Positions 17,257 through 51,962 of a stretch of 58,759 nt of DNA are shown piece after piece. Every line of letters begins with the position of its first letter. Within the stretch, counting starts at the first letter, position 1. The position numbers and the translations under genes are program-made. This DNA comes from Candidatus Peribacteraceae bacterium (GTDB lineage Bacteria > Patescibacteriota > Gracilibacteria > Peribacterales > Peribacteraceae): assembly GCA_028703835.1 (NCBI GenBank), contig JAQVMB010000008.1:1-58759 (forward strand), given 5' to 3'. The notes beneath the pieces were generated by a model. It did no database searches. It saw only the letters and a list, made by a program, of their open reading frames with translations, and was not told the origin of the DNA.

Positions 17257-17562
17257 TTACACGCCTGCCGGTCCGAGGATGACCGATGATTGGGAATGTG
17301 CCCAGCGGCTCTGCATCCCTCGATGATGTTCATTTCCATTTATGAGAGGCCTGCCGTCTGCTTTGTTGCGGATCGATTCCATCAATAACTGGTCGGCGGC
17401 CGTCACCACCATGAGTACTCCATCGTGCGTTTGTTGTTGGATCTCGAAGGTCGCCATGCCCCGGAATGTTTCCCGCAACTCTTGGGCAGCGGCTTCGTCG
17501 GATGCGATGATCGTGGCTTGGACCGTTTGCGGCGGGGACGGTTCGCGCAGTTTTGTGCCCAT
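17257..17562 (-). CDS. Small hypothetical protein
   Basis: A 101-residue open frame lies on the minus strand between the UPPS-like and epimerase-like genes, with protein-like composition (QATIIASDEAAAQELRETFRGM; VLMVVTAADQLL). It could form a small alpha/beta domain. No family is recognised and its upstream region has only a weak -10-like sequence, so it is less sure than its neighbours. Confidence 0.5.
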   Translation of the reverse strand: MGTKLREPSPPQTVQATIIASDEAAAQELRETFRGMATFEIQQQTHDGVLMVVTAADQLLMESIRNKADGRPLINGNEHHRGMQSRWAHSQSSVILGPAGV

Positions 17563-17630
17563 GGGAGGGAGAAAAAGGAGCGCGCATTCTCATTTGTTCT
17601 TTCCAAGCATGCAAGGCTATTCTGGGGAGG

Positions 17631-18977
17631 ATGCAAGAGATCACCTACCGTTCGCCGAAATTTTACGATGAGGCGGGGGACCACCCCGACCGTCATGTCC
17701 ATTTGATCCTCATCGCGACGAAGCCGGACATCATCAAGCAGGTGCCGCTCTACAAGGAACTGCAGAAACGCGGTCATTGCGTCATGCTGGGCCATACGGG
17801 GCAGCACTTCAGCGAGAACCTCAGTGGCGGGATGCTGAAGGAGTTCGGGGTGGAACCGGATTTCAACCTGAATATCCGCGGCGAATACCATGAGCTGGTC
17901 AGCCAGATCATCGGGCGGCTGGGCTACGTCATCGGGGAGCTGAAGAAGCGCGGGAAGATCGTCATTCCCTACGTCCACGGCGACACGGCCACGGCGATGG
18001 CGGCGGGGATCGCCGGGTATACCCATGCCTTCGCTGCGGTCCATGTGGAAGCGGGGATACGGACGCTGACGCCCGATTACGATGCATGGAAAGACCGTTT
18101 CCCGAAGCTCAAAACGAAGGACATGGCGGCGTGGAGGGAGTTCCTCATGGATCGCAAGCATTGGAAGCGAGGCAGCCAGGAGCCGTATCCGGAGCAGTTC
18201 AACACGCGTACCGCCGAGACTGTGACGGGCATCCACTTGGCGCCCGTGGAGTTGGACCGGGAGTTCATGCTGGCCGAGGGGTTCGCGGAAGATCGCATCC
18301 GCGTCGTGGGCAATTCCGTTGCGGATGCCACCATGGAGGCAGTGGAGAGGTCAGTGGCCAGTGGTCAGAGGCCAGTTGTCTTTGAGAGGTTCCCTCTGTT
18401 GGAAAAAGGTGATTTCGTCCGGTTCTGCATCCACCGCCGCGAGAACTGCGTTTCGGACCGCCGTTTCCTGGCCATCTACGGCGCCATGAAGGCGCTCATC
18501 GAAGAGGGTCGGACGGTGCTCCTTATTGACATGATCCAGACGAAGAAGGCCTTCGAACGGCTGGGACTGGTGAAGGAGGTGCAGGCGCTCGCGAAGAAGC
18601 ACAAAAATTTTGTCTTCTCGGAGGTGTGGCCGCAGTACACGGATGTCATCGCGGCCATGGGGAAGGCGGCTGTCTGCGCCACGGATTCCGGTTCCATGCA
18701 GGAGGAAATGAACATCCTGGGCGTGCCGTGCGTGACGCTGCGCTTCGGTTCCGACCGCAGCGAGTCGGCGATGGGGGGCGGGAACCTCATCGCGCCTCCG
18801 ACGGATGCCGCGACCATCAAGAAGATCATCGAGTTCGCGTGGGACAACAAAGAGATGCGCAAGGCTCCGAAGCTCTATGGCGAGGACGTCAGCAGGGAAT
18901 CGATCGACTTTGTCGAAGAGGTGTTGGGGCGCGGGGAGGAAGTGTTCCGGGATGAGGAGAAGCGCTTACGATTGTGA
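17631..18977 (+). CDS. UDP-N-acetylglucosamine 2-epimerase-like protein
   Basis: The 448-residue protein has a GT-B epimerase fold. It has LILIATKPDIIKQVPLYKEL, LGHTGQHFSENL, YVHGDTATAMAAGIAGY, VHVEAGIRTLTP, TVTGIHLAPVELDREFML, FCIHRRENC and CATDSGSMQEEMNILGVPCVTLRFGSDR. WecB-type enzymes make UDP-ManNAc, which fits the nearby TagA/WecG. It is longer than WecB (about 375), with an insert near residues 140-190. Short repeats at 18351-18380 are read in frame as part of the protein. ATG 17631 lies 7 nt after TATTCT. Confidence 0.87.
   Translation: MQEITYRSPKFYDEAGDHPDRHVHLILIATKPDIIKQVPLYKELQKRGHCVMLGHTGQHFSENLSGGMLKEFGVEPDFNLNIRGEYHELVSQIIGRLGYVIGELKKRGKIVIPYVHGDTATAMAAGIAGYTHAFAAVHVEAGIRTLTPDYDAWKDRFPKLKTKDMAAWREFLMDRKHWKRGSQEPYPEQFNTRTAETVTGIHLAPVELDREFMLAEGFAEDRIRVVGNSVADATMEAVERSVASGQRPVVFERFPLLEKGDFVRFCIHRRENCVSDRRFLAIYGAMKALIEEGRTVLLIDMIQTKKAFERLGLVKEVQALAKKHKNFVFSEVWPQYTDVIAAMGKAAVCATDSGSMQEEMNILGVPCVTLRFGSDRSESAMGGGNLIAPPTDAATIKKIIEFAWDNKEMRKAPKLYGEDVSRESIDFVEEVLGRGEEVFRDEEKRLRL
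18351..18380. repeat. In-frame (T/G)CAGTGGCCAGTGG-type repeats inside a gene
   Basis: Several AGTGGCCAGTGGTCAG-like units occur here within the 2-epimerase-like coding region (read as SVASGQRPV). The same repeat family is intergenic at 26209-26306. Confidence 0.6.
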
Positions 18978-19231: not shown

Positions 19232-20746
19232 ATGCAATCCGCCGTCCAGCGTCTCCGGGAGTGGCTCGTACTTTTGCTCATCGGCCTGCTGCCCTTTCAT
19301 GCTTTCCTTGTGACCGCGGGGACGAAGCTCGCGCTGGGGCCGAACAACGCGCCGTGGGCGGTGCTGGCGCTGTGGAAAGAGGCTGTGCTGGGAGTGATCC
19401 TTCTTCTTGCGTTGGTGGAATTTATTTTTTCTTCGAAAAGGGCTATCAGCTTTCAGCGATCAGCTTTCAGTGTAGATGTCCTTGATGTTCTCATCCTTTC
19501 GCTCGCAGTCCTTGCGGTCGCGGTGAGCATCTTCGCCGGGACAGAGCGGGGGCTTTTCCTCCTCGGCGTCCGCTACGACTTCGTCCCGCTCGTCGCCTTC
19601 CTGGTCCTCCGCCGCGTACCCTGGTCGGAGGCGTTTCACGGGCGCCTGATGAACGTGCTCCTCGGCGTGGGCGCGCTGGTGTCTTTTCTGGGGATCATCA
19701 GCTTGTTCTTGCCCGTGTCCGCGTTCGTCCGTCTGGGATACGCCGATGCCCACTCGCTCTATACGCCGGGCGGCCCCTTGTCGCCGTTCCAGCAGATCGC
19801 GGAGAGCTGGGTGCGGAGGGTGCAGTCCACGATGAGCGGGCCGAATCAGCTTGGGATCTGGCTGCTGATTCCGTTGGGAGCCTTGCTCTCGTTTTGGATG
19901 GTGCGGGGAGGAGTACGGGAGTACGGGAGTACGGGAGTACGAGGTATGGGAATGAACAACGCAATGTCCCGTATTCCCGTATTCCCGTATTCCCGTATTC
20001 GACGATTCATAATCGTTCTGTCAGCATTCTTCATGCTTTGCGCTCTCTTCCTGACCTTCAGCCGCGCTGCATGGATCGCTGTGTTCGTCATGGTCATCGT
20101 CATGCTCTGGAAAGCATTGCCGCGGCGATGGTTCGTGCGCGCAGCGGTCGGCGGCGGTGCATTGGTCATCGTTGCGGGGATCACCGCAGCCGCCCTCTTT
20201 CCCTCCGTCTTCTTCCGCCTCTCGTCCTCTCGCGGGCACCTGGTCCGTCCGCTGGAGGGGATCGGGAAGATGATCGAGCGGCCGCTGGGGTGGGGTCTGG
20301 GAGCCGCGGGTCCCGCGAGCAACCGCGTCAGCGAAACATGCGTCTTCCTGCGCCCGCAGGACGATCCGTCCTGGGCCAAGGCGCAGCCGCAGCTCTGTGT
20401 TTTCCTGGGCTCCACGCAGGTGCAGCCGACCGATCATGCCTGCCGCTGCCCGTTCCTGCCGGAGAACTGGTACATCCAAATCGGCGTCGAACTGGGGGTG
20501 TTGGGTTTTGCTCTCTTCTTGGCGTTGGTGGTGATGATTCTTCGCCGCTTGAGAAAGAATAATGGACAATTGATAATTGATAATTATCCATCATCCATCA
20601 TCCATTATCAATTCGCCGCGTTCTTGGCATTTCTGGGGGTGAGCATCGCCGCTCTGTTCCTCCACGCCTGGGAAGACGCCGCGGTGGCATACACGGGGTG
20701 GATCCTCATTTCCGTTGCCTTTTCCCGGGGAGGACGGGGGGCGTAG
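19232..20746 (+). CDS. O-antigen ligase/polymerase-like membrane protein with three repeat insertions
   Basis: The 504-residue protein has about ten membrane segments and an FLTFSRAAWIAVFV stretch of the Wzy/WaaL type (PF04932). Ligases of this family attach lipid-linked glycans to an acceptor at the outer face. A large external loop (about residues 330-415) contains cysteines. Three different short-repeat families are inserted in frame, all in loops: SKRAISFQRSAFS (19443-19471), GGVREYGSTGVRG...RIPVFPYSRI (19908-20005) and NNGQLIIDNYPSSIIHYQ (20561-20613). TACTCT is 8 nt before the ATG. It closes a run of surface-glycan genes. Confidence 0.85.
   Translation: MQSAVQRLREWLVLLLIGLLPFHAFLVTAGTKLALGPNNAPWAVLALWKEAVLGVILLLALVEFIFSSKRAISFQRSAFSVDVLDVLILSLAVLAVAVSIFAGTERGLFLLGVRYDFVPLVAFLVLRRVPWSEAFHGRLMNVLLGVGALVSFLGIISLFLPVSAFVRLGYADAHSLYTPGGPLSPFQQIAESWVRRVQSTMSGPNQLGIWLLIPLGALLSFWMVRGGVREYGSTGVRGMGMNNAMSRIPVFPYSRIRRFIIVLSAFFMLCALFLTFSRAAWIAVFVMVIVMLWKALPRRWFVRAAVGGGALVIVAGITAAALFPSVFFRLSSSRGHLVRPLEGIGKMIERPLGWGLGAAGPASNRVSETCVFLRPQDDPSWAKAQPQLCVFLGSTQVQPTDHACRCPFLPENWYIQIGVELGVLGFALFLALVVMILRRLRKNNGQLIIDNYPSSIIHYQFAAFLAFLGVSIAALFLHAWEDAAVAYTGWILISVAFSRGGRGA
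19443..19471. repeat. In-frame TATCAGCTTTCAG-type repeat
   Basis: Two to three copies of a (G)ATCAGCTTTCAGC unit lie in the first cytoplasmic or external loop of the O-antigen ligase-like gene. Confidence 0.65.
19908..20005. repeat. In-frame GTACGGGA repeats with inverted partners
   Basis: GGAGTACGGGAGTACGGG-type units (19910-19945) are followed by their complement CCCGTATTCCCGTATTCC (19967-19999). RNA would form a long imperfect hairpin, yet the reading frame is kept open. The same family occurs before nth and after the nucleotidyltransferase gene. Confidence 0.75.
20561..20613. repeat. In-frame ATTGATAATT/CATCCATCATCC repeats
   Basis: Left units ACAATTGATAATTGATAATT are matched by right units CATCCATCATCCATTATCAATT. 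This is a third repeat family in the same gene; a related one lies at 31145-31213 beside def. Confidence 0.7.
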
Positions 20747-30685: not shown

Positions 30686-31183
30686 TCAGGTTGTCGTCCC
30701 GACGGGGGCGTAATCCGAGATCAGCACGCCGTCGAGGTGGTCCACTTCGTGCTGCACGACGCGCGCATTGAAATCCGCGAGGCGCCGCTCCTGCTCCTTT
30801 CCTTGCAAATCCAGATACTTCACCGTGATTTCCCGGGCGCGCGGAACCGTGACCTGCAGGCCGGGCAGGCTGAGGCAGCCTTCTTCGTCCAGCGTCAGTT
30901 CATCGCTTTTCCAGGTGATGTCCGGGTTGATGAGGGCACGGGCTTTCTCATCGATGACTGCGATGCAGACCCGAACGTTCACACCCACTTGGGGCGCGGC
31001 GATGCCCGCTCCCTCCTCTTTGGTCATGGAGTCCGCCATGTCCCGCAGCAATTTCTTGATTTCCTTCGTCACCTTCGGCACCCGTTCATTCTTCCTGCGG
31101 AGGATCGGGTTGTCGGCGCCGGTGACGATGGGAAGGGGGGACAAAAAAATTGAAAATGGAAAATTGAAAATGATTGTTTCCAT
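30686..31183 (-). CDS. def: Peptide deformylase
   Basis: It removes the N-formyl group from new proteins. All three motifs are present: GAGIAAPQVG, EGCLSLPG and QHEVDHLDG (metal ligands Cys and two His). The usual N-terminus would be near LSPLPIVTGADNPILRRK. From ATG 31183 the first ~15 residues (METIIFNFPFSIF) are encoded by an ATTGAAAATGGAAAATTG-type repeat. TTG 31144 would start at MSPLPIVTG and match the family better. GATAAT from the same repeat lies 5 nt before the ATG. Confidence 0.93.
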   Translation of the reverse strand: METIIFNFPFSIFLSPLPIVTGADNPILRRKNERVPKVTKEIKKLLRDMADSMTKEEGAGIAAPQVGVNVRVCIAVIDEKARALINPDITWKSDELTLDEEGCLSLPGLQVTVPRAREITVKYLDLQGKEQERRLADFNARVVQHEVDHLDGVLISDYAPVGTTT

Positions 31184-31213
31184 TATCAATTATCCACTAT
31201 CAATTATCAATTG
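31145..31213. repeat. AT-rich repeat array overlapping the start of def
   Basis: Units of AATTGAAAATGGAAAATTG (left) and ATTATCAATTATCCACTATC (right) lie around the def start. The array provides both a -10-like GATAAT and an ATG for def. It is related to the array at 20561-20613. Confidence 0.65.
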
Positions 31214-31317: not shown

Positions 31318-34300
31318 TTACAGTTGTGCATCGATGCCCTCCAAGTCCAAGTTACGTTCCGTCTTGCGTATTCCTGTTCGATCACTTTCCCAACTGCCAA
31401 CGTCTGCTGCCGCAGGCGCAAGAGACTGAAGCCATGTATTACCTGACAGATAGGGTGCTGGCACGTAGTCATCGCCGAATTGGTAAGGAAGTTTCCATTC
31501 GTAGTCTAATGCTCCAATGAATCCAGCGGCATCACCCTGCGAGGATCCCACTTCGGCTTTCACGGCGTTGCGGTAGAAGCGCGTGTAAGGGGAGGCGGAA
31601 CCGACGAGTCCACCAATTTTGCTGATTCCCTTAATGACGGATCCGCTCTCCACGACAGAATCAACAATAATGCCTTTTCCCATACTGCCCACCAGACCGC
31701 CGGCAGCGGAGGCACCGTCTCTGTCTGCGCCGCCCCACACGGTTCCTTTGAAGGAGGAATGGGAAATGACGCAGGGCAGGGTGGAGCGGTTGATGCAGTA
31801 CCAGCTGCCGATCAGTCCTCCCACGCCCCGTCCCGTGGCTGCTATATCGGCTTCTGCGCGGCTGCCGATAATGGGAAGAGCATTGCTTCCCCCCACCAAT
31901 CCTCCCACGAATGATCCATTTGCGGAGTGACCGAGAGTGATGGTGCCACGGAACAACGAACGGATGAGGCCTACTTTATTTTCTTGCATGCCGTCATCGA
32001 GCGGATTGATGAGATTGAGAGACTGTGCATTATTGCCGATGATTCCACCAACATATTTTTGGCCTCCCTGTACACCCGCCGAACCGAGTTGGGCAGTGGA
32101 GAGCGAATCTTCGATGCGGATAGGCCCCTCCGAAAAGCCCACCAGTCCCCCTGCCTCCTGCTGTTCGATACTGATGAGCGTGTTGCGGACCGAGCAATTG
32201 CTGATGTGCAACATTTTCCATTGCGTATGGCCGATCAGTCCTCCCACGGCTTTCATGCCCCATATTTGTCCGTCGATGACGTGGACGTTTTCCATGAGAA
32301 GGCCGGCTCCTGCTACTTCCGTATCTCCAATGACGCCTCCCACAGCGGTTTTACCGCGTATCGTGGGATTGCGAAGAATCAAGTTTCTGATGCTCCAGAG
32401 AGGAGAGAGACCCGGAAAAGAATATCCGTTGTGGCCGCGATGGAAGAGTCCCACTTTCGAATCGAGGCTGTCCACGACGGTCGGGTTGCGAATTTCGTAC
32501 CCGTTTCCATCCAAAGAACCACCGAGGTCGATGGGGGACATGTTGGAAATCGCGATGAAATCCAAGTTGGCGATGAGGCGGAATTGGTCGCGCCCGCAGT
32601 GAAGTTTCTCGTCTTTCGTCAAATTGTCAAAATCTGCACAATACGCGGGGAAGCCCGCGTCTGGAACATACATATTCGAGAGGCCTCCTCGGGATTGTCT
32701 TTGGATGAACTTGTAGGCGTTTTCCGCGGCGTTACGAAGTTGGTCGGGAGTACAGACAAGGAAGGGATCTCCTTCGGTTCCCTGTCCTCCTGCAAATGAG
32801 CCGGAGGAGGTCAGAGCCGGGTCGTCGCAGCGAGGATCATTTGCTTTCGGAGGAGGGAGCGTTTCTCCGGGGAGCGGGAACGGACCAGCGGGAGAGTAAT
32901 CCGCAATGCCTGGAATCAAGTGCGTCGTTCCTTGATGCTGTTTCTGGAGCTTGGGATTGGTCACGGTAATGTTCAAGACCTCATCGTAATGCGCATCGCC
33001 CCACACGGAGAAGAAGTGGGGGAAACCCTGTTGTCCCCAGCCGATGCCCTTGTCGGTTCTGGTGCTCTGTATGTTCACTTGGAGCTCCTTCAAATCATCT
33101 GAAGTCATCCCGCGGACGAAATATCCTTCATAAATGTTCGAGGGGGCAAGATAAGAATTCTTTTCCGGCCATATTTCTTTATAGATTCCCGGATCAAAGT
33201 CCAAGAGAGCAGGAGAAACTACGGGGGCTTGGATATGCAACGTCACTTGTTTTTCAATGGCTTGGTCTTCGCCGTTTCCCCGGTAGACCGAACGGTACGC
33301 GAGGGGGATGGTCGTGTCCGGGAAGAGGGCTTTCTCTTGCCACTCGTTGCCCGTGACGATGGGGATGGGGAGGAGAGAGCCTCGCTTGGTCCAAGCTTCT
33401 TTGTCATCTGCTTTCATTGCCTGCAAGACACTCGTCATCGTGCTGTTCTCGCTCGTCCATTCTGTCAGTGGCCCCATAGCGTTGGTGAAGTCATGGTGGC
33501 GGATTGGTGCCCAGTAATCTCCTCCTTGGATGGGGTCGAATATGTTCAGTTCCGGGAAGACATTGATTATGAAGGGTTTCAAGGGAGTGTAGTCGCGTGC
33601 AACAGAGAAAACACCGTTTGTGTCTGCTTCAATGGGTTCCGGAAAATTGGTTGCGGTTTGGTATCCTTGAGGCGGCGCCGTTTCGGCGCTGAAACGAATG
33701 CCAAGCAGCGGATACTTGGGAACCGTCACGGAAATTTGTGCTTTCAATCCCCGCCCGTAGAGAGATGTAATCGTTGCGCTGAAGCCCGGTTTTTCATTCA
33801 TCGGAAGCACGAAGGGGCTTGCCCATATACCGAGACCATTGTTTGCAATCATCTTTGGATTATCGATGGAGAGCGACGCTTCCGATGACAAATTGCAGAT
33901 GCGACCGTTCGATTCGTGACCGATGATGAAAAGTCCCGTGGACGAGTCCTTGGAGGCACCCTGCCAAATCATGAATTGAGGTGCCGGCCTGAGGTCGGGG
34001 AGTTTGTACGTGCATCGGTTGTTTCCCCAACTACTGCTCGGAATTCCCGTGATTTCGATGTACTCCAATTGGTCCGTTTGCCCGGTTTGCGTATCGAAGG
34101 GAACGATGCGGATGGGGGTGGTCTTGGTCTGGCCGTTGAGACGGGCGGAAACGGTGTATGTCTGAGCATTGCCGTTCGCTGTCAGGCTTTGCCTGCTCGG
34201 ATAGACGATGCCCTGCTCATCGATAGGCAGGCGGACAGGATCACTCGTTTGCCAAGTGACATCGGCAGGTGGAATGACAGTGAAAGAATTGCCTTCGTCA

Positions 34301-37300
34301 TATCGGCGGAGGACGAAGAGTGCGCGGCTCTGGAAGTTGAGGAGGGGTTTTTTTGTCATCAGCTCCACCCGGTCGAAGTTTTCCGTGACCGTAAAGGGCA
34401 GCACAGAGGTGAAGGTTTCATCCTTCCCTTGTCCACGGAAGGGAACGGTAGCCTGTACCGTGTAGGTGCCGGGAGTGAGAGAAGCCGTTTGAATCTTCGT
34501 CTCCTTGCTATCCTGCAATTGCAGCGTGAGATCGTTGCTCAGAGAAGTCCACGTTGCTCGCGCGGGGCGGTCCACACTCTCCCCTTGCACATTGATGAGG
34601 GATTGGAGGGTGAGCGTTTGTCCCCGGAAGACGGATTTTCCGAGCGGATTCAGGATGCAGGAGGGGCCGTTCTCTTCCCTTCCCAGACACGTGCCCGGCT
34701 CAGCTTTCTGAACTTCAATGACGGCGGAGACGGCATGGCCGTCGACCGTGGCGGTAACGGTGTATCGTTTGCCGCCGTAGGCATCCACGGTGCTGAAGAA
34801 GCCGTGGAGTGGGGGGATAAGGGAAAATTCAGAGGGGATATCCGTGGTCCAGGAGGCTTCAGGAGTGTAATCCACCACAAAATCCGTCGTTTCATTCCGG
34901 AAAGTTTCCACAAGTTGGAAAGAGAATCCCGCTTTTCCCCATGTGGCCTTGAAAGGTTTTTCCGCGGATCCATTTTCTTCCTCTGGATCTGTGCCGGGCT
35001 TGATCATGCTCAAGCCCTCGGACACGAATTCGTCGGGTGTAGCTGCCTTTCGGATCGCGAGATTGAACGAAGCATCAAATTCTTCGTAGTGTCCTATGAT
35101 GCGAAGTCTCTGCAAATTCTTCAAAGATTCTGCGTTGGCGGTGAGTGTCACCTGCCCATTGGGAGCGATGGGGAGAAGGAGATCATCCTGTGTAGTCCAA
35201 AATGCATCCATTGTCACGTTTTTCGTCGTTCCGTCCTTTGCGAGGAGTACGGCATGGAACATTGTTGTTTCTCCCGGGAACAGGCCCGCTTTATCTGGTT
35301 GGATAATCAAGCGATCTGAAGGGGACACGTCCTCATCGGGTTTCCATCCTTCGCTCGCTCGTGGATTGTCCGAGGGAATTCTCCGGCGTTGGTCATCCGT
35401 CATGCCGTCGAGGCTGTGCAGGTACTCCGCAAGTTGTTGGAAATCGAGTACGCGTCCTTTGCGCACTTTCTTCTCCAGAGCTGGTACTTTGCGCGCAGCA
35501 TTCTCCAGCACGTCCTCAATCAGCCAGGAATCATAGTACCAGTTATGCTGCTTGAAGTAGCCGATGACAAGAGCCGCTGCGGCCGACACTTGCGGTGCAG
35601 CGACGGAGGTTCCATCCGTGCCTGCCACGGCATTTCCGAGTCCATAGGAAGCGATGTTCGTGGCGGGGGCCAGGAGTTCCACCGCATCGCCATAGTTCGA
35701 GAAACGGTACAGGCGATCCGCCCCGGTTTCCAATCCTCCCACGGTCACTGCACCTTGGAAGTACCGCCCCCAGCAGGCCGGAGCGACGGTATTTCCGTAC
35801 ACGGCAGGTCGATCATCCGATGGCCAGATAAGGCGGCCCGGAATGTTCTGGCCGTTTTCGTCTACCTTGATTCCGTTCCCTGCGGAGAAGACAAAGAACA
35901 CGTTGTTTTCCAGTGCTTTGTAGATGGCGTGCCCTATGACCGGATTACAGAGATCCCTGTCGTACTCGGCCATGCTTATGTTAATGACGTCCGCGCCGGC
36001 GTTGACGGCGTGCTTGATGGCTTCGAAGAGATCGGATGTCCGAAGCTTTTGCATGTCTGTGGCATTGCGGGCGATTTTGATGGGGAGGAGGACCGCGTTC
36101 ACGCTCGCCAAGCCCTGTACCTTCGATCCTTGACCCATCGTGATCAAGCTTCCCACAGCAGTGCCGTGTCCAACGGCGTCCTGCGGATCGTCGGGAGCTT
36201 CGTCCGTCGGGCAATCTTCTTTTTTGGCTTTGTGGCAGAACTGAGCAGCTGTCCTGTTGGAGCCTTCCAGATTGGGAGATAGTTCGGGGGTTGCGGGATT
36301 GTTCAGGTCGAATCCCGTATCGATGGTCGCCACGACTACCTTGCCCTTACGGTCACTTGCGAGGGCATTCTGGAAGAATGATCGTGCCTGGGTGTAATGC
36401 GTTGCATCCAGGTAGGCGAAGCTGGGGGCGACCGAGGAAGAAGAAACGGCCTCGGAGCGCACATCTTCCTCGCCCGGCACCGTGATGCCGATAATGCAGG
36501 AATCTTCCTTCACATGTTTCCAGAGATCGTCGTAGGGCGTATTGAAGTTCAGGTGCAGGTCGTACACCGCGTCTTCCATCATCGTTGCCTTGGAAGGGGC
36601 AGGCGGAGGTGCAGGGAGGTAGCCGTCAAAGAACATATTCTGCCCGTCTTTCATGCGCGTCCTCCTGCAGCGATCGTCAACTGTGATGAGGAGGGGGAGG
36701 GAGCCTGGCACGATCTTCTTCGCAGTCGCTGTAGCGGGAGGGGGAGGGGGTGAGTCATCAGATTGACCTGTAGCATCTGCGATAAGAGAAGCTGTCCAAT
36801 CTTTTAAGCCATTCCAGAGACGTCCGAGAGCCAAGGGAGAGGTTGTTTGCAACTGTTCGTCGGGAATGGCGAGCGGCTGCTTGGCGAAGGGGGAAACTTG
36901 CGTGTCCGCTCCCGCTTCCATCGTGCAGAGGGAGGAGCAGCCGTCATCGTTCGTCGCGTTGCCATCGTCACACTCCTCTTCCGCTTGTACATATCCGTCG
37001 CCGCAGGCTGCCGCTCCGCACTTGTTGGTGCACGTATCCGTATTCACGGTGTTGCCATCGTCGCAATCTTCCCCTGCATCCACGACGCCGTTGCCGCAGG
37101 AAATGACGGAGAGGAGGTGGGCAGGCGAAGCGAGGACCGTGCCGCTGGCCGTGGGAGAGCTCGTCACAATCGATGCGCCGTACGTGCCATTGCGGACGAT
37201 GGAGGAGGTCCTCAGGCTCAAGAGAATGGTTTTTGTCCCTCCTCCTGGAAGATCACCCACTGCACAGGTGGCAGCGGGGGAGCCAACGATGGGGGAGCAG

Positions 37301-39924
37301 GATGTGTCCGAGAAATCAGGCAGGAAGGTATCGTTCGCATCCAGCGGCAGCGTGAGGGAGAGGGCTTTGGCGGTCCCTGCCCCGCGGTTTTCCACCGTCG
37401 TTTTCAGCTGAGCGGTCCCTCCGACAAATACTTGATCCGTTCCGGTGATCGACACGGCGAGGAGGCTCTCCTTCTCACAGCGAGAGGTGCAGCTGTCGCC
37501 ATTCGTCGCGTTGCCATCGTCACACTCCTCTCCCGTTCCCACGAACCCGTCTCCGCACATTGCCTTCTTGCACGTGTTGATGCAGGTGTCTGTATCGATC
37601 CTGTTCCCATCGTCACATTCTTCCCCCTGCTGCACGAGACCGTCTCCGCATACTGCTGTCTTGCAGCCATTCGAGCAGCCGTCCCCGTTCGTCGCATTCC
37701 CATCGTCACATTCTTCCCCTTTCTCCTTGATCCCATTGCCGCACAAGACGGTCTGACATTCGCTGGAACAGCCATCTCCATCCACGAGGTTCCCGTCATC
37801 GCAGCCTTCTCCGGCTTCCGTGAGGCCATTCCCGCAGACCGGGTTCCTGCACTCGTTGCTGCAAGCATCGCTCGCGACTCTATTCCCATCGTCACATTCT
37901 TCCCCGCTCTGCGTGAATCCGTCGCCGCACATGGCTTTCTTGCATGCATTCGAGCAGGTGTCGCCATTCTCGGCATTTCCGTCATCACATTCTTCGGTGC
38001 CTTGCATGATGCCGTCGCCGCACCTGGCTATCTTGCAGGCATTCGAGCAGGTGTCATCATTCGTGTTGTTCCCATCATCGCATTCCTCGTCCTGTTGCAC
38101 GATGGCATCCCCGCAGCGGGGGAGTCCGCAGGCATTCGTGCATCCGTCTGCATTCTCCATATTGCCGTCGTCGCAGGCTTCGCCGGGTTGAACGATGTTG
38201 TCGCCGCACATCGCCTTTTTGCATGCGTTCGTGCAGGTATCTTCGTTTTGGGTATTCCCATCGTCACATTCTTCCCCGCTCTGCGTGAATCCGTCGCCGC
38301 ACATGGCTTTCTTGCATGCATTCGAGCAGGTGTCGCCATTCTCGGCATTTCCGTCATCACATTCTTCGGTGCCTTGCATGATGCCGTCGCCGCATTTCGT
38401 GATCTTGCATGTAGTCGAGCAGCTGTCAGTTGCCACATCATTTCCATCATCACATTCTTCCCCGTTTTGCGTGAACCCGTCGCCGCAACGGGCTGACTTG
38501 CACATATTTGTGCATGCATCGTCGTTCTCGAAATTCTTGTCATCGCACTCTTCCATTCCTTCTTTCACGCCGTCGCCGCAGCGGATGGTCTTGCAGGATG
38601 CCGAGCAGGTCGTAGAGGAAAGGTTTCCTTCATCACATTCTTCTTCGTTCTGCATGAATCCGTCACCACATACTGCAATTTTGCAGGCATTGGTGCAGGT
38701 GTCTCTGTTCTCGACATTCCCGTCATCGCATTCCTCGGCTCCCTGGCGGAGGCCGTCGCCGCACCTGGGCAGCTTGCAGGAAGCGGTGCAGGCATCGCCG
38801 TTTCCGCCATCGCATTCTTCTCCGCTTTGTACAAAGCCGTCTCCGCAGGAGGCATTTCTGCAGGAAGCGGTACAGTCGTCCGTGTCATTCTTGTTTCCGT
38901 CATCGCACTCTTCTCCGTTCTGCAAGAATCCGTCGCCGCACGTGGCGTTCTTGCATGCGCTCGTGCACGCATCGCCATCCTCGGCATTTCCGTCGTCGCA
39001 CTCTTCTCCGCTCTGTACGAATCCATCGCCGCAGACCCCCTTCTTGCAAGAGGTGGTGCAGCCGTCCTCATTGACGGTGTTTTTGTCATCACATTCCTCC
39101 GCTCCCTGACGAATCCCGTCGCCGCAGGCAGGCAGTGAACACAGGTTCGTACAGCCGTCCTCGTCCGCCTGGTTTCCGTCGTCGCATTCCTCGGCACCCT
39201 GCTTCATCCCGTTTCCGCAAACTGCGTTCTTGCACGTATTGGAGCAGATATCGTCATTGACCGCATTCCCGTCATCACATTCCTCTTCGGCATCTATGGT
39301 TCCATTCCCGCAGGCAATGGCGGGTTGAGCGGCGCAGAAGGCGGGGAACAGAAGCAGATCCACGTTGTCCCGGAGGGAGGGATCCGCCGTCAGGCCCGTC
39401 GCGTATCCCCACAGCATAAGGGAAACAGGGCAGCTGTCGCTATCTTCCACAACCAACAGAAAAGGAATGGTGATTTCTTCCTTTTCAGCCATTTCGGGGA
39501 GTTGGCACGAGAGGGCGTTCTCATACCCTTGGGGTTGGGTACACGATGGAAGGAGTGGGAGGATGGACAATCCCTTCCCCTTGCTCCCGTAGAGAATGAG
39601 GGTGACTTTTTCCGCGGGGTTCGGTCCTCTGTTGCTTACCGTGACGGAGAGTATGGAACCAGTATTGACCGTCACGCTTCCCAGAGGCGCAAAATGAATG
39701 TTTAAGTCTGCCTCCTTTTTGCATTTCGTGGAGCAGCCGTCCCCGTTTGTTTGATTCCCGTCATCACACTGTTCCTGGGCTTCGACTGTTCGGTTCCCGC
39801 AAATGCCAGCCGAAGATGCTGCAAAAGAATCCGCCGTCGGCTGCGCGGCGAAAGCGAAAAGAAAGGAGACAGTGCTTATCAGAAGAAGCGGAGCAGCGGG
39901 AAGCTGCAGAGGAAAAAGACGCAT
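31318..39924 (-). CDS. Giant secreted protein: Cys-rich repeats, subtilase, beta-helix (2868 residues)
   Basis: A signal peptide (MRLFPLQLPAAPLLLISTV..., about residues 1-30) is followed by a region with 23 copies of a Cys-rich DUF4215-like repeat of about 31 residues (pattern CGDGxxQxGEECDDGNxxNxDxCxxxC). Copy 1 is at about 41, copies 2-21 at about 205-820 and copies 22-23 at about 940-1005. DUF11/CARDB-like domains sit at about 72-200 and 820-940. A Pro-rich linker leads to an S8 subtilisin domain with the complete triad: Asp in VVATIDTGFD (~1200), His in VGHGTAVGS (~1253) and Ser in GTDGTSVAAPQVS (~1439). Several Ig-like domains follow. The last ~370 residues contain GLUG-type repeats (VGGVIGD, VGGLIGH, AGGLVGF, VGGIIGN). 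There is no LPXTG motif or C-terminal membrane anchor. The repeats are Asp/Glu-rich and probably bind Ca2+. A role as a surface protease/adhesin is inferred. The nearby DsbA-like protein could oxidise its many cysteines. Confidence 0.88.
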   Translation of the reverse strand: MRLFPLQLPAAPLLLISTVSFLFAFAAQPTADSFAASSAGICGNRTVEAQEQCDDGNQTNGDGCSTKCKKEADLNIHFAPLGSVTVNTGSILSVTVSNRGPNPAEKVTLILYGSKGKGLSILPLLPSCTQPQGYENALSCQLPEMAEKEEITIPFLLVVEDSDSCPVSLMLWGYATGLTADPSLRDNVDLLLFPAFCAAQPAIACGNGTIDAEEECDDGNAVNDDICSNTCKNAVCGNGMKQGAEECDDGNQADEDGCTNLCSLPACGDGIRQGAEECDDKNTVNEDGCTTSCKKGVCGDGFVQSGEECDDGNAEDGDACTSACKNATCGDGFLQNGEECDDGNKNDTDDCTASCRNASCGDGFVQSGEECDGGNGDACTASCKLPRCGDGLRQGAEECDDGNVENRDTCTNACKIAVCGDGFMQNEEECDEGNLSSTTCSASCKTIRCGDGVKEGMEECDDKNFENDDACTNMCKSARCGDGFTQNGEECDDGNDVATDSCSTTCKITKCGDGIMQGTEECDDGNAENGDTCSNACKKAMCGDGFTQSGEECDDGNTQNEDTCTNACKKAMCGDNIVQPGEACDDGNMENADGCTNACGLPRCGDAIVQQDEECDDGNNTNDDTCSNACKIARCGDGIMQGTEECDDGNAENGDTCSNACKKAMCGDGFTQSGEECDDGNRVASDACSNECRNPVCGNGLTEAGEGCDDGNLVDGDGCSSECQTVLCGNGIKEKGEECDDGNATNGDGCSNGCKTAVCGDGLVQQGEECDDGNRIDTDTCINTCKKAMCGDGFVGTGEECDDGNATNGDSCTSRCEKESLLAVSITGTDQVFVGGTAQLKTTVENRGAGTAKALSLTLPLDANDTFLPDFSDTSCSPIVGSPAATCAVGDLPGGGTKTILLSLRTSSIVRNGTYGASIVTSSPTASGTVLASPAHLLSVISCGNGVVDAGEDCDDGNTVNTDTCTNKCGAAACGDGYVQAEEECDDGNATNDDGCSSLCTMEAGADTQVSPFAKQPLAIPDEQLQTTSPLALGRLWNGLKDWTASLIADATGQSDDSPPPPPATATAKKIVPGSLPLLITVDDRCRRTRMKDGQNMFFDGYLPAPPPAPSKATMMEDAVYDLHLNFNTPYDDLWKHVKEDSCIIGITVPGEEDVRSEAVSSSSVAPSFAYLDATHYTQARSFFQNALASDRKGKVVVATIDTGFDLNNPATPELSPNLEGSNRTAAQFCHKAKKEDCPTDEAPDDPQDAVGHGTAVGSLITMGQGSKVQGLASVNAVLLPIKIARNATDMQKLRTSDLFEAIKHAVNAGADVINISMAEYDRDLCNPVIGHAIYKALENNVFFVFSAGNGIKVDENGQNIPGRLIWPSDDRPAVYGNTVAPACWGRYFQGAVTVGGLETGADRLYRFSNYGDAVELLAPATNIASYGLGNAVAGTDGTSVAAPQVSAAAALVIGYFKQHNWYYDSWLIEDVLENAARKVPALEKKVRKGRVLDFQQLAEYLHSLDGMTDDQRRRIPSDNPRASEGWKPDEDVSPSDRLIIQPDKAGLFPGETTMFHAVLLAKDGTTKNVTMDAFWTTQDDLLLPIAPNGQVTLTANAESLKNLQRLRIIGHYEEFDASFNLAIRKAATPDEFVSEGLSMIKPGTDPEEENGSAEKPFKATWGKAGFSFQLVETFRNETTDFVVDYTPEASWTTDIPSEFSLIPPLHGFFSTVDAYGGKRYTVTATVDGHAVSAVIEVQKAEPGTCLGREENGPSCILNPLGKSVFRGQTLTLQSLINVQGESVDRPARATWTSLSNDLTLQLQDSKETKIQTASLTPGTYTVQATVPFRGQGKDETFTSVLPFTVTENFDRVELMTKKPLLNFQSRALFVLRRYDEGNSFTVIPPADVTWQTSDPVRLPIDEQGIVYPSRQSLTANGNAQTYTVSARLNGQTKTTPIRIVPFDTQTGQTDQLEYIEITGIPSSSWGNNRCTYKLPDLRPAPQFMIWQGASKDSSTGLFIIGHESNGRICNLSSEASLSIDNPKMIANNGLGIWASPFVLPMNEKPGFSATITSLYGRGLKAQISVTVPKYPLLGIRFSAETAPPQGYQTATNFPEPIEADTNGVFSVARDYTPLKPFIINVFPELNIFDPIQGGDYWAPIRHHDFTNAMGPLTEWTSENSTMTSVLQAMKADDKEAWTKRGSLLPIPIVTGNEWQEKALFPDTTIPLAYRSVYRGNGEDQAIEKQVTLHIQAPVVSPALLDFDPGIYKEIWPEKNSYLAPSNIYEGYFVRGMTSDDLKELQVNIQSTRTDKGIGWGQQGFPHFFSVWGDAHYDEVLNITVTNPKLQKQHQGTTHLIPGIADYSPAGPFPLPGETLPPPKANDPRCDDPALTSSGSFAGGQGTEGDPFLVCTPDQLRNAAENAYKFIQRQSRGGLSNMYVPDAGFPAYCADFDNLTKDEKLHCGRDQFRLIANLDFIAISNMSPIDLGGSLDGNGYEIRNPTVVDSLDSKVGLFHRGHNGYSFPGLSPLWSIRNLILRNPTIRGKTAVGGVIGDTEVAGAGLLMENVHVIDGQIWGMKAVGGLIGHTQWKMLHISNCSVRNTLISIEQQEAGGLVGFSEGPIRIEDSLSTAQLGSAGVQGGQKYVGGIIGNNAQSLNLINPLDDGMQENKVGLIRSLFRGTITLGHSANGSFVGGLVGGSNALPIIGSRAEADIAATGRGVGGLIGSWYCINRSTLPCVISHSSFKGTVWGGADRDGASAAGGLVGSMGKGIIVDSVVESGSVIKGISKIGGLVGSASPYTRFYRNAVKAEVGSSQGDAAGFIGALDYEWKLPYQFGDDYVPAPYLSGNTWLQSLAPAAADVGSWESDRTGIRKTERNLDLEGIDAQL
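37881..38022 (-). repeat. Recent internal duplication, copy A
   Basis: About 142 bp are, by eye, identical to 38253-38394, offset by 372 bp (four 31-codon repeats). This indicates recent unequal recombination among the Cys-rich repeats. Confidence 0.8.
38253..38394 (-). repeat. Recent internal duplication, copy B
   Basis: This is the partner of 37881-38022. Repeat units further away are clearly diverged, so this exact identity is recent or maintained by gene conversion. Confidence 0.8.
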
Positions 39925-40599: not shown

Positions 40600-40662
40600 G
40601 AGGCGGCAACTATACTCCCGGCGAGGGTTCTTTCGAGACAGTTTCCTTTCCATTTTGGGACG

Positions 40663-40760
40663 GGGAGTACGGGAGTACAGGAATACTGGAGTACGGGAGT
40701 ATGAGTATGTACTTTAACTTTCCTCGTATTCCCGTATTCCAGTATTCTCGTATTCTTCGT
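40663..40760. repeat. GTACGGGA/TATTCCCG palindromic repeat array before nth
   Basis: Left units GGGGAGTACGGGAGTAC (40663-40700) are mirrored by right units CGTATTCCCGTATTCCAG (40724-40760). The right half contains several TATTCY hexamers that may serve as the nth -10. Confidence 0.75.
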
Positions 40761-41453
40761 ATGCCAAGACGTAACGCCGTTTCCGTTCATCGGGTTATCC
40801 AGGACTTGGAGTCGCTCTACGATCCTCCCCGCTCCTTCCTCACGTGGGAGACGCCCTTCGAACTCCTCATCGCCACGATCCTCAGCGCCCGCTGCACGGA
40901 TGCGCAGGTGAACAAAGTGACGCCGGGATTGTTCCGTACGTACCGGACGCCGGAGGATTATGTGAAGGCTTCCGTTGCGGCGGTGGAGAAAGACATCCAT
41001 TCGTGCGGGACGTTCCGCATGAAAACGAAGAACATCCGCAGCCTGTGCCGGAAGCTGATCGAAGAATTCGGCGGGAAGGTGCCGCAGACCATGCAGGAAT
41101 TGGTATCGCTGTCCGGGGTGGGGCGGAAAACGGCTTCCATCGTCCTCTACGCCGCTTTCGGCCAGCAGGAGGGCATCGCGGTGGATACGCATGTGCAGCG
41201 GTTGTCGCTTCGTTTGGGCCTTTCGATGCACCAGACGCCGGAAAAGATCGAACGGGATCTGATGGCGCAGGTGCCTCGGGAAAAGTGGGGCGTGCTGAAC
41301 ACGTTGATGATAAGCCACGGTCGCGCCGTTTGCACCGGAAGGAACCGGAAATGCGGCGCCTGTATTTTCAAGGATGCGTGTCCTTCGTCCCTGACGCGGG
41401 GGAAACGGGATCTGGCAACAAAACGTGTAGATGGAGTTTGGCAGAGTGTATGA
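40761..41453 (+). CDS. nth: Endonuclease III
   Basis: This base-excision glycosylase/lyase removes oxidised pyrimidines. The 230-residue protein has the helix-hairpin-helix LSGVGRKTASIVLYA with the catalytic Lys, the catalytic Asp in GIAVDTHVQRLSLRLG, and a [4Fe-4S] motif C-x6-C-x2-C-x5-C near the C-terminus (CTGRNRKCGACIFKDAC). ATG 40761 follows the TATTCC/TATTCT repeat array directly; the upstream ATG at 40701 lies inside the repeats. Confidence 0.94.
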   Translation: MPRRNAVSVHRVIQDLESLYDPPRSFLTWETPFELLIATILSARCTDAQVNKVTPGLFRTYRTPEDYVKASVAAVEKDIHSCGTFRMKTKNIRSLCRKLIEEFGGKVPQTMQELVSLSGVGRKTASIVLYAAFGQQEGIAVDTHVQRLSLRLGLSMHQTPEKIERDLMAQVPREKWGVLNTLMISHGRAVCTGRNRKCGACIFKDACPSSLTRGKRDLATKRVDGVWQSV

Positions 41454-51853: not shown

Positions 51854-51923
51854 CGGGGAGAGCGTAGCGGGATGGACGGTTATTTTGAAGGAGCCTTCGG
51901 AATGCGAAGAGGACGAAGGAAAG

Positions 51924-51962
51924 AATACGGGAATACTGGAGTACTGGAATACGGGGGTGCAA
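51924..51962. repeat. AATACGGGAATACTGG repeat array
   Basis: Units of (G)AATACGGGAATACTGGAGTAC repeat here between the nucleotidyltransferase and the half sugar-transferase gene. It is the same family as 19908-20005 and 40663-40760. Confidence 0.65.

Follow-up and report, generated by a model that had tools for sequence, protein, structure and literature searches.

An O-antigen ligase gene of Candidatus Peribacteraceae, interrupted by three different short-repeat insertions, is likely one target of a genome-wide, dispersed class of short tandem arrays in these bacteria; that confidence applies jointly to this statement and to the proposal, developed below, that arrays are copied within a genome and then sifted by selection. 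A large minority of the arrays sit in genes, in frame at structurally permissive loops, the structural part having been modelled for the ligase only, and homologous loops hold different units in different species. The DNA from which the analysis started, hereafter the window, is a stretch of 58,759 nucleotides (contig C39) from a 1.34-Mb assembly that is 98.5% complete, labelled G000 below.

The ligase gene and the repeat tracts of the window

The ORF at 19232-20746 is a single open frame of 504 aa that runs uninterrupted through all the repeat tracts. It matches the Pfam domain Wzy_C (PF04932, E 3.8e-8), and its AlphaFold2 model (pLDDT 89.1) has WaaL (7tpg, E 2.3e-7) as its top PDB match. Repeat tracts were located by direct reading of the sequence and by TRF. 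A previous sequence-only reading had claimed three in-frame short-repeat insertions in this ligase-like gene, at 19443, 19908 and 20561, all of them in loops. Both claims held: the tracts are found at these places, and in the model they all lie in inter-helix coil or at helix ends. Tract 1 occupies a loop bounded by helices 48-70 and 83-102; tract 2 falls within residues 228-247, a disordered loop (pLDDT <50) linking helix 212-226 to helix 255-275; and tract 3 lies where helix 413-447 ends and in the coil that follows (residues 443-454, pLDDT about 69-75). Judging from the known WaaL topology and from basic residues near the loops, we infer that all three are cytoplasmic and away from the periplasmic active site, a topology that remains untested. 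The arrays in the ligase are likely to be neutral linkers, although this neutrality is inferred without functional data.

Repeat arrays of the window and the genes that host them, with the basis of each assignment
Feature	Position	Strand	Basis or remark
UDP-GlcNAc 2-epimerase gene, upstream of ligase, also invaded	17553..18977	+	PF02350, E 1.3e-43
In-frame heptamer array CAGTGGY in epimerase	18336..18380	+	TRF and orthologue alignment
O-antigen ligase / WaaL-type gene	19232..20746	+	504 aa; carries three array insertions, all in frame
Array 1, heptamer TATCAGC/TTTCAGC	19442..19470	+	Direct reading, TRF; loop from model
Array 2, 5' arm, octamer GGAGTACG x4	19910..19941	+	TRF; disordered loop 228-247
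Array 2, 3' arm, octamer TCCCGTAT x4.2	19967..20000	+	TRF; inverted relative to 5' arm
Array 3, 5' arm, AATTGAT heptamer units	20561..20585	+	Helix end / coil 443-454
Array 3, 3' arm, heptamers ATCCATC / ATTATCA	20586..20613	+	TRF
Intergenic two-armed array, array 3 family	31146..31212	.	TRF
Two-armed octamer array, array 2 family, at ORF junction	40663..40762	.	RNA fold z -8.7
Single-armed octamer array, array 2 family	51923..51955	.	TRF

The two arms of array 2 pair as a hairpin with GU pairs (RNA fold z -9.3), and strong hairpins are predicted by RNA folding at 19905-20004 and 40658-40760. The octamer pattern of the array 2 family is matched 16 times in the window where 0.27 matches are expected, and AATTGATAATTGAT 7 times where 0.13 are, numbers reached by no shuffle. 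The array 1 family (CAGCTTTCAGC) has two copies in the window, by themselves not above chance, and is absent elsewhere in it. The claim that each repeat family is also found between genes elsewhere was therefore only partly borne out: families 2 and 3 recur in the window, whereas family 1 fails there and has relatives only elsewhere in the genome (C36:36055, L060 15594 and L064 4932). Tract 1 is thus weaker by itself and draws its support from this genome-wide family and from the arrays that orthologues carry in the same loop. Separately, the ORF at 31318-39924 (-) of the window, 2868 aa long, contains a tandem repeat of 93 bp (at 37881-38595) and possibly encodes a repetitive surface protein.

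We aligned 32 orthologues of the ligase, 31 of them in one alignment at 31-60% identity. The three loops differ among them in both length and sequence, many being short, and at least one heptamer or octamer array is present in 20 of the 33 ligase genes, the window gene included. Loop 3 alone holds arrays in 17 ligase genes with 19 different canonical units, and loop 1 holds other units in 7 orthologues (arrays in 7 genes, 7 units). Repeat-free orthologues with the same amino acids at these loops would have refuted the insertion reading, a refutation that was not met. Since the loops are variable and the arrays in orthologues differ in their units, ordinary conserved protein sequence is excluded, as is a single ancient insertion that has remained unchanged. 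One orthologue (L021, from G011) has five arrays in a single gene, with both heptamer and octamer units.

Arrays across genes and genomes

To survey the arrays beyond the window, we used samples of 410 kb from G000 and 400 kb from a second genome, G034. By period, the G034 sample has 85 arrays of 7, 18 of 8, one of 6, 16 of 9 and none of 10-13 nt; its 59 arrays of period 14 are mostly the heptamer arrays counted again. The period-9 arrays (16 in G034, 28 in G000) are likely coding triplet repeats. The commonest array length is 31-32 nt, seen in 61 of 181 heptamer arrays; this amounts to four-and-a-half 7-nt units or about four 8-nt units. At the stringency used, a Markov-shuffled control of the 410-kb G000 sample gave no array, and there were 0 in 100 kb of E. 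coli. None were found in 60-100 kb of two genomes of the family (G014 and G024), and other families of the same class have few.

The arrays are depleted in genes yet far from absent from them, with the caveat that the gene calls and coding fractions come from a simple gene finder and are crude: gene interiors hold 15 of the 55 arrays of G000 and 32 of the 103 of G034, while coding sequence makes up 76-78% of the total. Most of these interior arrays are hosted by proteins for which no membrane segment is predicted. By simple arithmetic, when a perfect array has a period of 7 or 8, every frame translates into one and the same cyclic peptide; a unit free of stops is therefore tolerated in any phase, provided that the total length is divisible by three. 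Read in the sense direction, the unit has no stop in 12 of 15 interior arrays in G000 and 30 of 32 in G034, and in the latter genome the unit is open on both strands in 28 of 32 interior arrays, as against 34 of 71 elsewhere.

Replacement of units at homologous sites is seen in several enzymes. In the epimerase it occurs at residues 196 and 284, the latter being the site of the array of the window at 18336-18380; this site holds AAAAAGG units in G034, AAAACCA in G007 and a short loop in most orthologues. The isoleucyl-tRNA synthetase (IleRS) of G034 carries arrays at residues 46, 504 and 577: site 46 corresponds to a gap in solved IleRS structures, site 504 to the end of the match to the catalytic domain, and site 577 lies within a nested histidine-phosphatase domain. 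Three congeners (G059, G060 and G062), 75-81% identical, have different units at these three sites, the units at site 577 in the four congeners being AGCAAACG, CAAACGAA, AATTTTC and GCAAATC; most other genera have shorter loops there. Likewise, in GMP synthase (GuaA) the units differ at residues 120, 327 and 430 between congeners that are 78-83% identical. At each site many orthologues are without an array. The sequence-only reading, which had inferred the invasion of a gene at permissive sites, is supported by the genome-wide dispersal of the families, the loops and the kept frame; it had covered only a part of the phenomenon, as invasion extends genome-wide to soluble, essential proteins.

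Certain side observations concern these proteins. The G034 IleRS (L160:74-4552 (-), 1493 aa) has its histidine-phosphatase domain (PF00300) in two stretches nested between the synthetase parts, and its orthologues L177-L191 across the family align over this region. In G061 (C39:9669-10763) the IleRS is split between frames, with internal stops, around query residues 401-782, which we attribute to a frameshift or an assembly error. Homologues in G044, G046, G048, G055 and G057, from other families of the same class, have many in-frame TGA codons, consistent with the recoding of TGA in Gracilibacteria; the family of the window shows almost none.

The arrays are dispersed within a genome, with unit families common to loci of one genome and mostly different between genomes. 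For the gene-interior arrays, a further locus of the same genome carries the identical unit in 11 of 16 cases (G000) and 23 of 35 (G034); the other genome carries it in just 1 of 16 and 3 of 35, respectively. When one mismatch is allowed, same versus other genome becomes 13/16 vs 8/16 (G000) and 31/35 vs 17/35 (G034), with values of 3.4 and 14.7 for shuffled units; as the contrast is smaller here, it is the exact-match figures that carry the argument for dispersal.

The arrays occur singly, many being single-armed, or as inverted pairs whose polarity is fixed for each family and whose arms are separated by 0-83 nt of unrelated sequence. Counting as pairs all neighbouring arrays of equal period at most 100 bp apart (n=79), we found 69 inverted and 5 direct. 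Within families the strand of the 5' arm was consistent (26 against 2), and this arm is usually the purine-rich strand (59 of 69 inverted pairs). No mutual similarity was detected among the 35 spacers measuring 20 nt or more, nor any flanking or target motif at array edges. A phase-lock of array ends was rejected as a general rule, the first and last three bases agreeing in only 19 of 81. In a visual inspection, paired arms did not consistently mirror each other in the order of their units, and no such order is proposed.

Proposed origin of the arrays and rival explanations

We propose that arrays already present in a genome would be the source of new copies, added onto DNA ends by template switching or by ectopic synthesis where DNA is broken or forks have stalled. 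The extension of convergent 3' ends would yield fixed polarity together with unrelated spacers, and selection would then purge insertions that break the frame, introduce stops or fall in structured protein. Template-directed copying is favored because same-strand extension of two convergent 3' ends would give convergent polarity, whereas the unrelated spacers and fixed arm polarity argue against the pair moving as a unit. Taken by itself, templated copying at DNA ends is our leading guess and carries moderate weight; it is a possibility reached by inference, as no array has been caught moving and no copying enzyme has been identified. The comparison rests on one genome per species, without an exact pair of empty-site and filled-site DNA. 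One observation counts against the proposal: in the ligase orthologues L031, L034 and L019 the arms flank a conserved transmembrane helix, one on each side, an arrangement unexplained by a single insertion event.

The first alternative is local replication slippage, whereby a heptamer present by chance in an indel-tolerant loop expands on the spot into an array, with no movement between loci. In its favor, slippage at heptamers is the usual explanation of heptameric repeats (discussed in PMC4692102), the loops tolerate changes in length and the flanks have no target motif. However, it does not predict that exact units are shared within a genome and hardly with another, nor the sharp length peak at 31-32 nt, the near-restriction to periods 7 and 8 or the inverted pairs of consistent polarity, and we regard it as unlikely.

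We likewise consider it improbable that the arrays are MITE- or REPIN-like elements, in which a transposase, IS200-type (Y1/RAYT) or other, would mobilize the inverted pair as one hairpin. The inverted doublets with variable spacer do resemble REPINs (PMC3116915), G000 has 4 matches to Y1_Tnp, and two arrays of the window form the strong hairpins noted above. Against this, Y1_Tnp was not found in the array-bearing genomes G020 and G007, and arrays are not concentrated by Y1_Tnp genes (flanks of 18 in relatives and of the four in G000). Moreover, single-armed arrays are many, there is no conserved core, and the spacers are unrelated, being in some orthologues native conserved helix sequence.

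Still less probable is a selected function, in which selection would have positioned and retained the arrays because they serve as hairpins in RNA or DNA or as beneficial linker peptides. The repeated refilling of the same sites in different lineages and the stable RNA hairpins speak for it; against it, units and peptides are wholly different between congeners, wobble pairs show no transcribed-strand preference (20 vs 16) and many orthologues lack an array at each site. Chance or assembly artefact, raised by the origin of the genomes as metagenome assemblies, is all but excluded, as shuffles yield no arrays and the arrays recur across many independent assemblies with open frames and species-specific units.

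Two candidate makers were rejected. A reverse transcriptase, telomerase-like or other, lacks support in that no RVT_1 match was found in G000, G020 or G007, all of which bear arrays. Ku-based end joining was set aside because Ku is present in G000 and in no other Peribacteraceae searched; the G000 gene itself (PF02735, L255 = G000:C21:29874-30407) is either a real acquisition or assembly contamination.

A bolder version of the copying proposal, which we think unlikely, would posit a dedicated system, other than a reverse transcriptase, that writes one-strand arrays of ~31 nt on convergent 3' ends at breaks or nicks. If it were true, each lineage would have its own set of units and the same gene loops would be overwritten by the current unit.

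Significance and comparison with known systems

The class of heptameric repeats is known in outline; as far as we searched, the heavy in-frame invasion of genes and the site-by-site replacement of units are new, and we found no description of such arrays in Patescibacteria in the openly licensed literature searched. The origin of bacterial heptameric repeats is unexplained, and three constraints can now be given for any mechanism: arrays favor a certain length, their polarity goes with the family and their spacers are unrelated, and units are replaced at homologous protein sites between congeners. In-frame rewriting by repeats at scale has reportedly been described so far mainly for Rickettsia and Wolbachia. 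In the Peribacteraceae, essential enzymes have had their loops rewritten again and again by repeat DNA with the frame kept; this amounts to a natural experiment in what proteins tolerate and supplies species-specific peptide segments.

The closest parallels are the GGGAATC repeats of Xanthomonas, the GGGGAYT repeats of Nostoc and the cyanobacterial STRR, with which the Peribacteraceae arrays share 7-nt units, mostly about four units per array and dispersal. The criterion of the heptameric SSR/STRR class, tandem 7-nt units scattered over many loci, is met. Convergent inverted pairs have been described in those heptameric repeats (70 and 75 pairs; PMC4692102), so the pair feature belongs to the wider class. 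However, the Xanthomonas and Nostoc work concerned one unit family per genome studied, 89-93% intergenic, whereas the Peribacteraceae have many unit families per genome, octamers too, a large in-frame genic share and replacement of units at homologous sites between species. The mostly intergenic location, a reported property and not a strict criterion, is not met here, given the genic counts above (15/55 and 32/103).

The sequence-only reading had likened the insertions to Rickettsia palindromic elements (RPE), which is right as an analogy and not as membership. Both are inserted in frame in many unrelated genes at exposed, tolerant sites, and the RPE criteria of in-frame genic insertion and fold-compatible sites are met, the latter as modelled for the ligase only. 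By contrast, RPE are 100-150 bp long with sequence and peptide conserved within a family, and the criterion of a conserved palindrome of that size is unmet by arrays of ~31 nt (peak 31-32 nt) that are simple and unconserved, with unrelated spacers. The likeness to REPINs, or REP doublets with RAYT, lies in form only: inverted doublets, variable spacers and hairpins are shared, but the arrays lack a conserved REP core and are not consistently linked to a RAYT gene. The TAACTGA direct repeats of Beggiatoaceae are likewise dispersed heptamer arrays of unknown function; they differ in being mostly intergenic and of one family, with one inverted case. Finally, the tandem repeats of Borgs are also fast-evolving and both intergenic and within ORFs, but are reported to form locally and to be unique to each locus, whereas the units of Peribacteraceae are of 7 or 8 nt and common to different loci.
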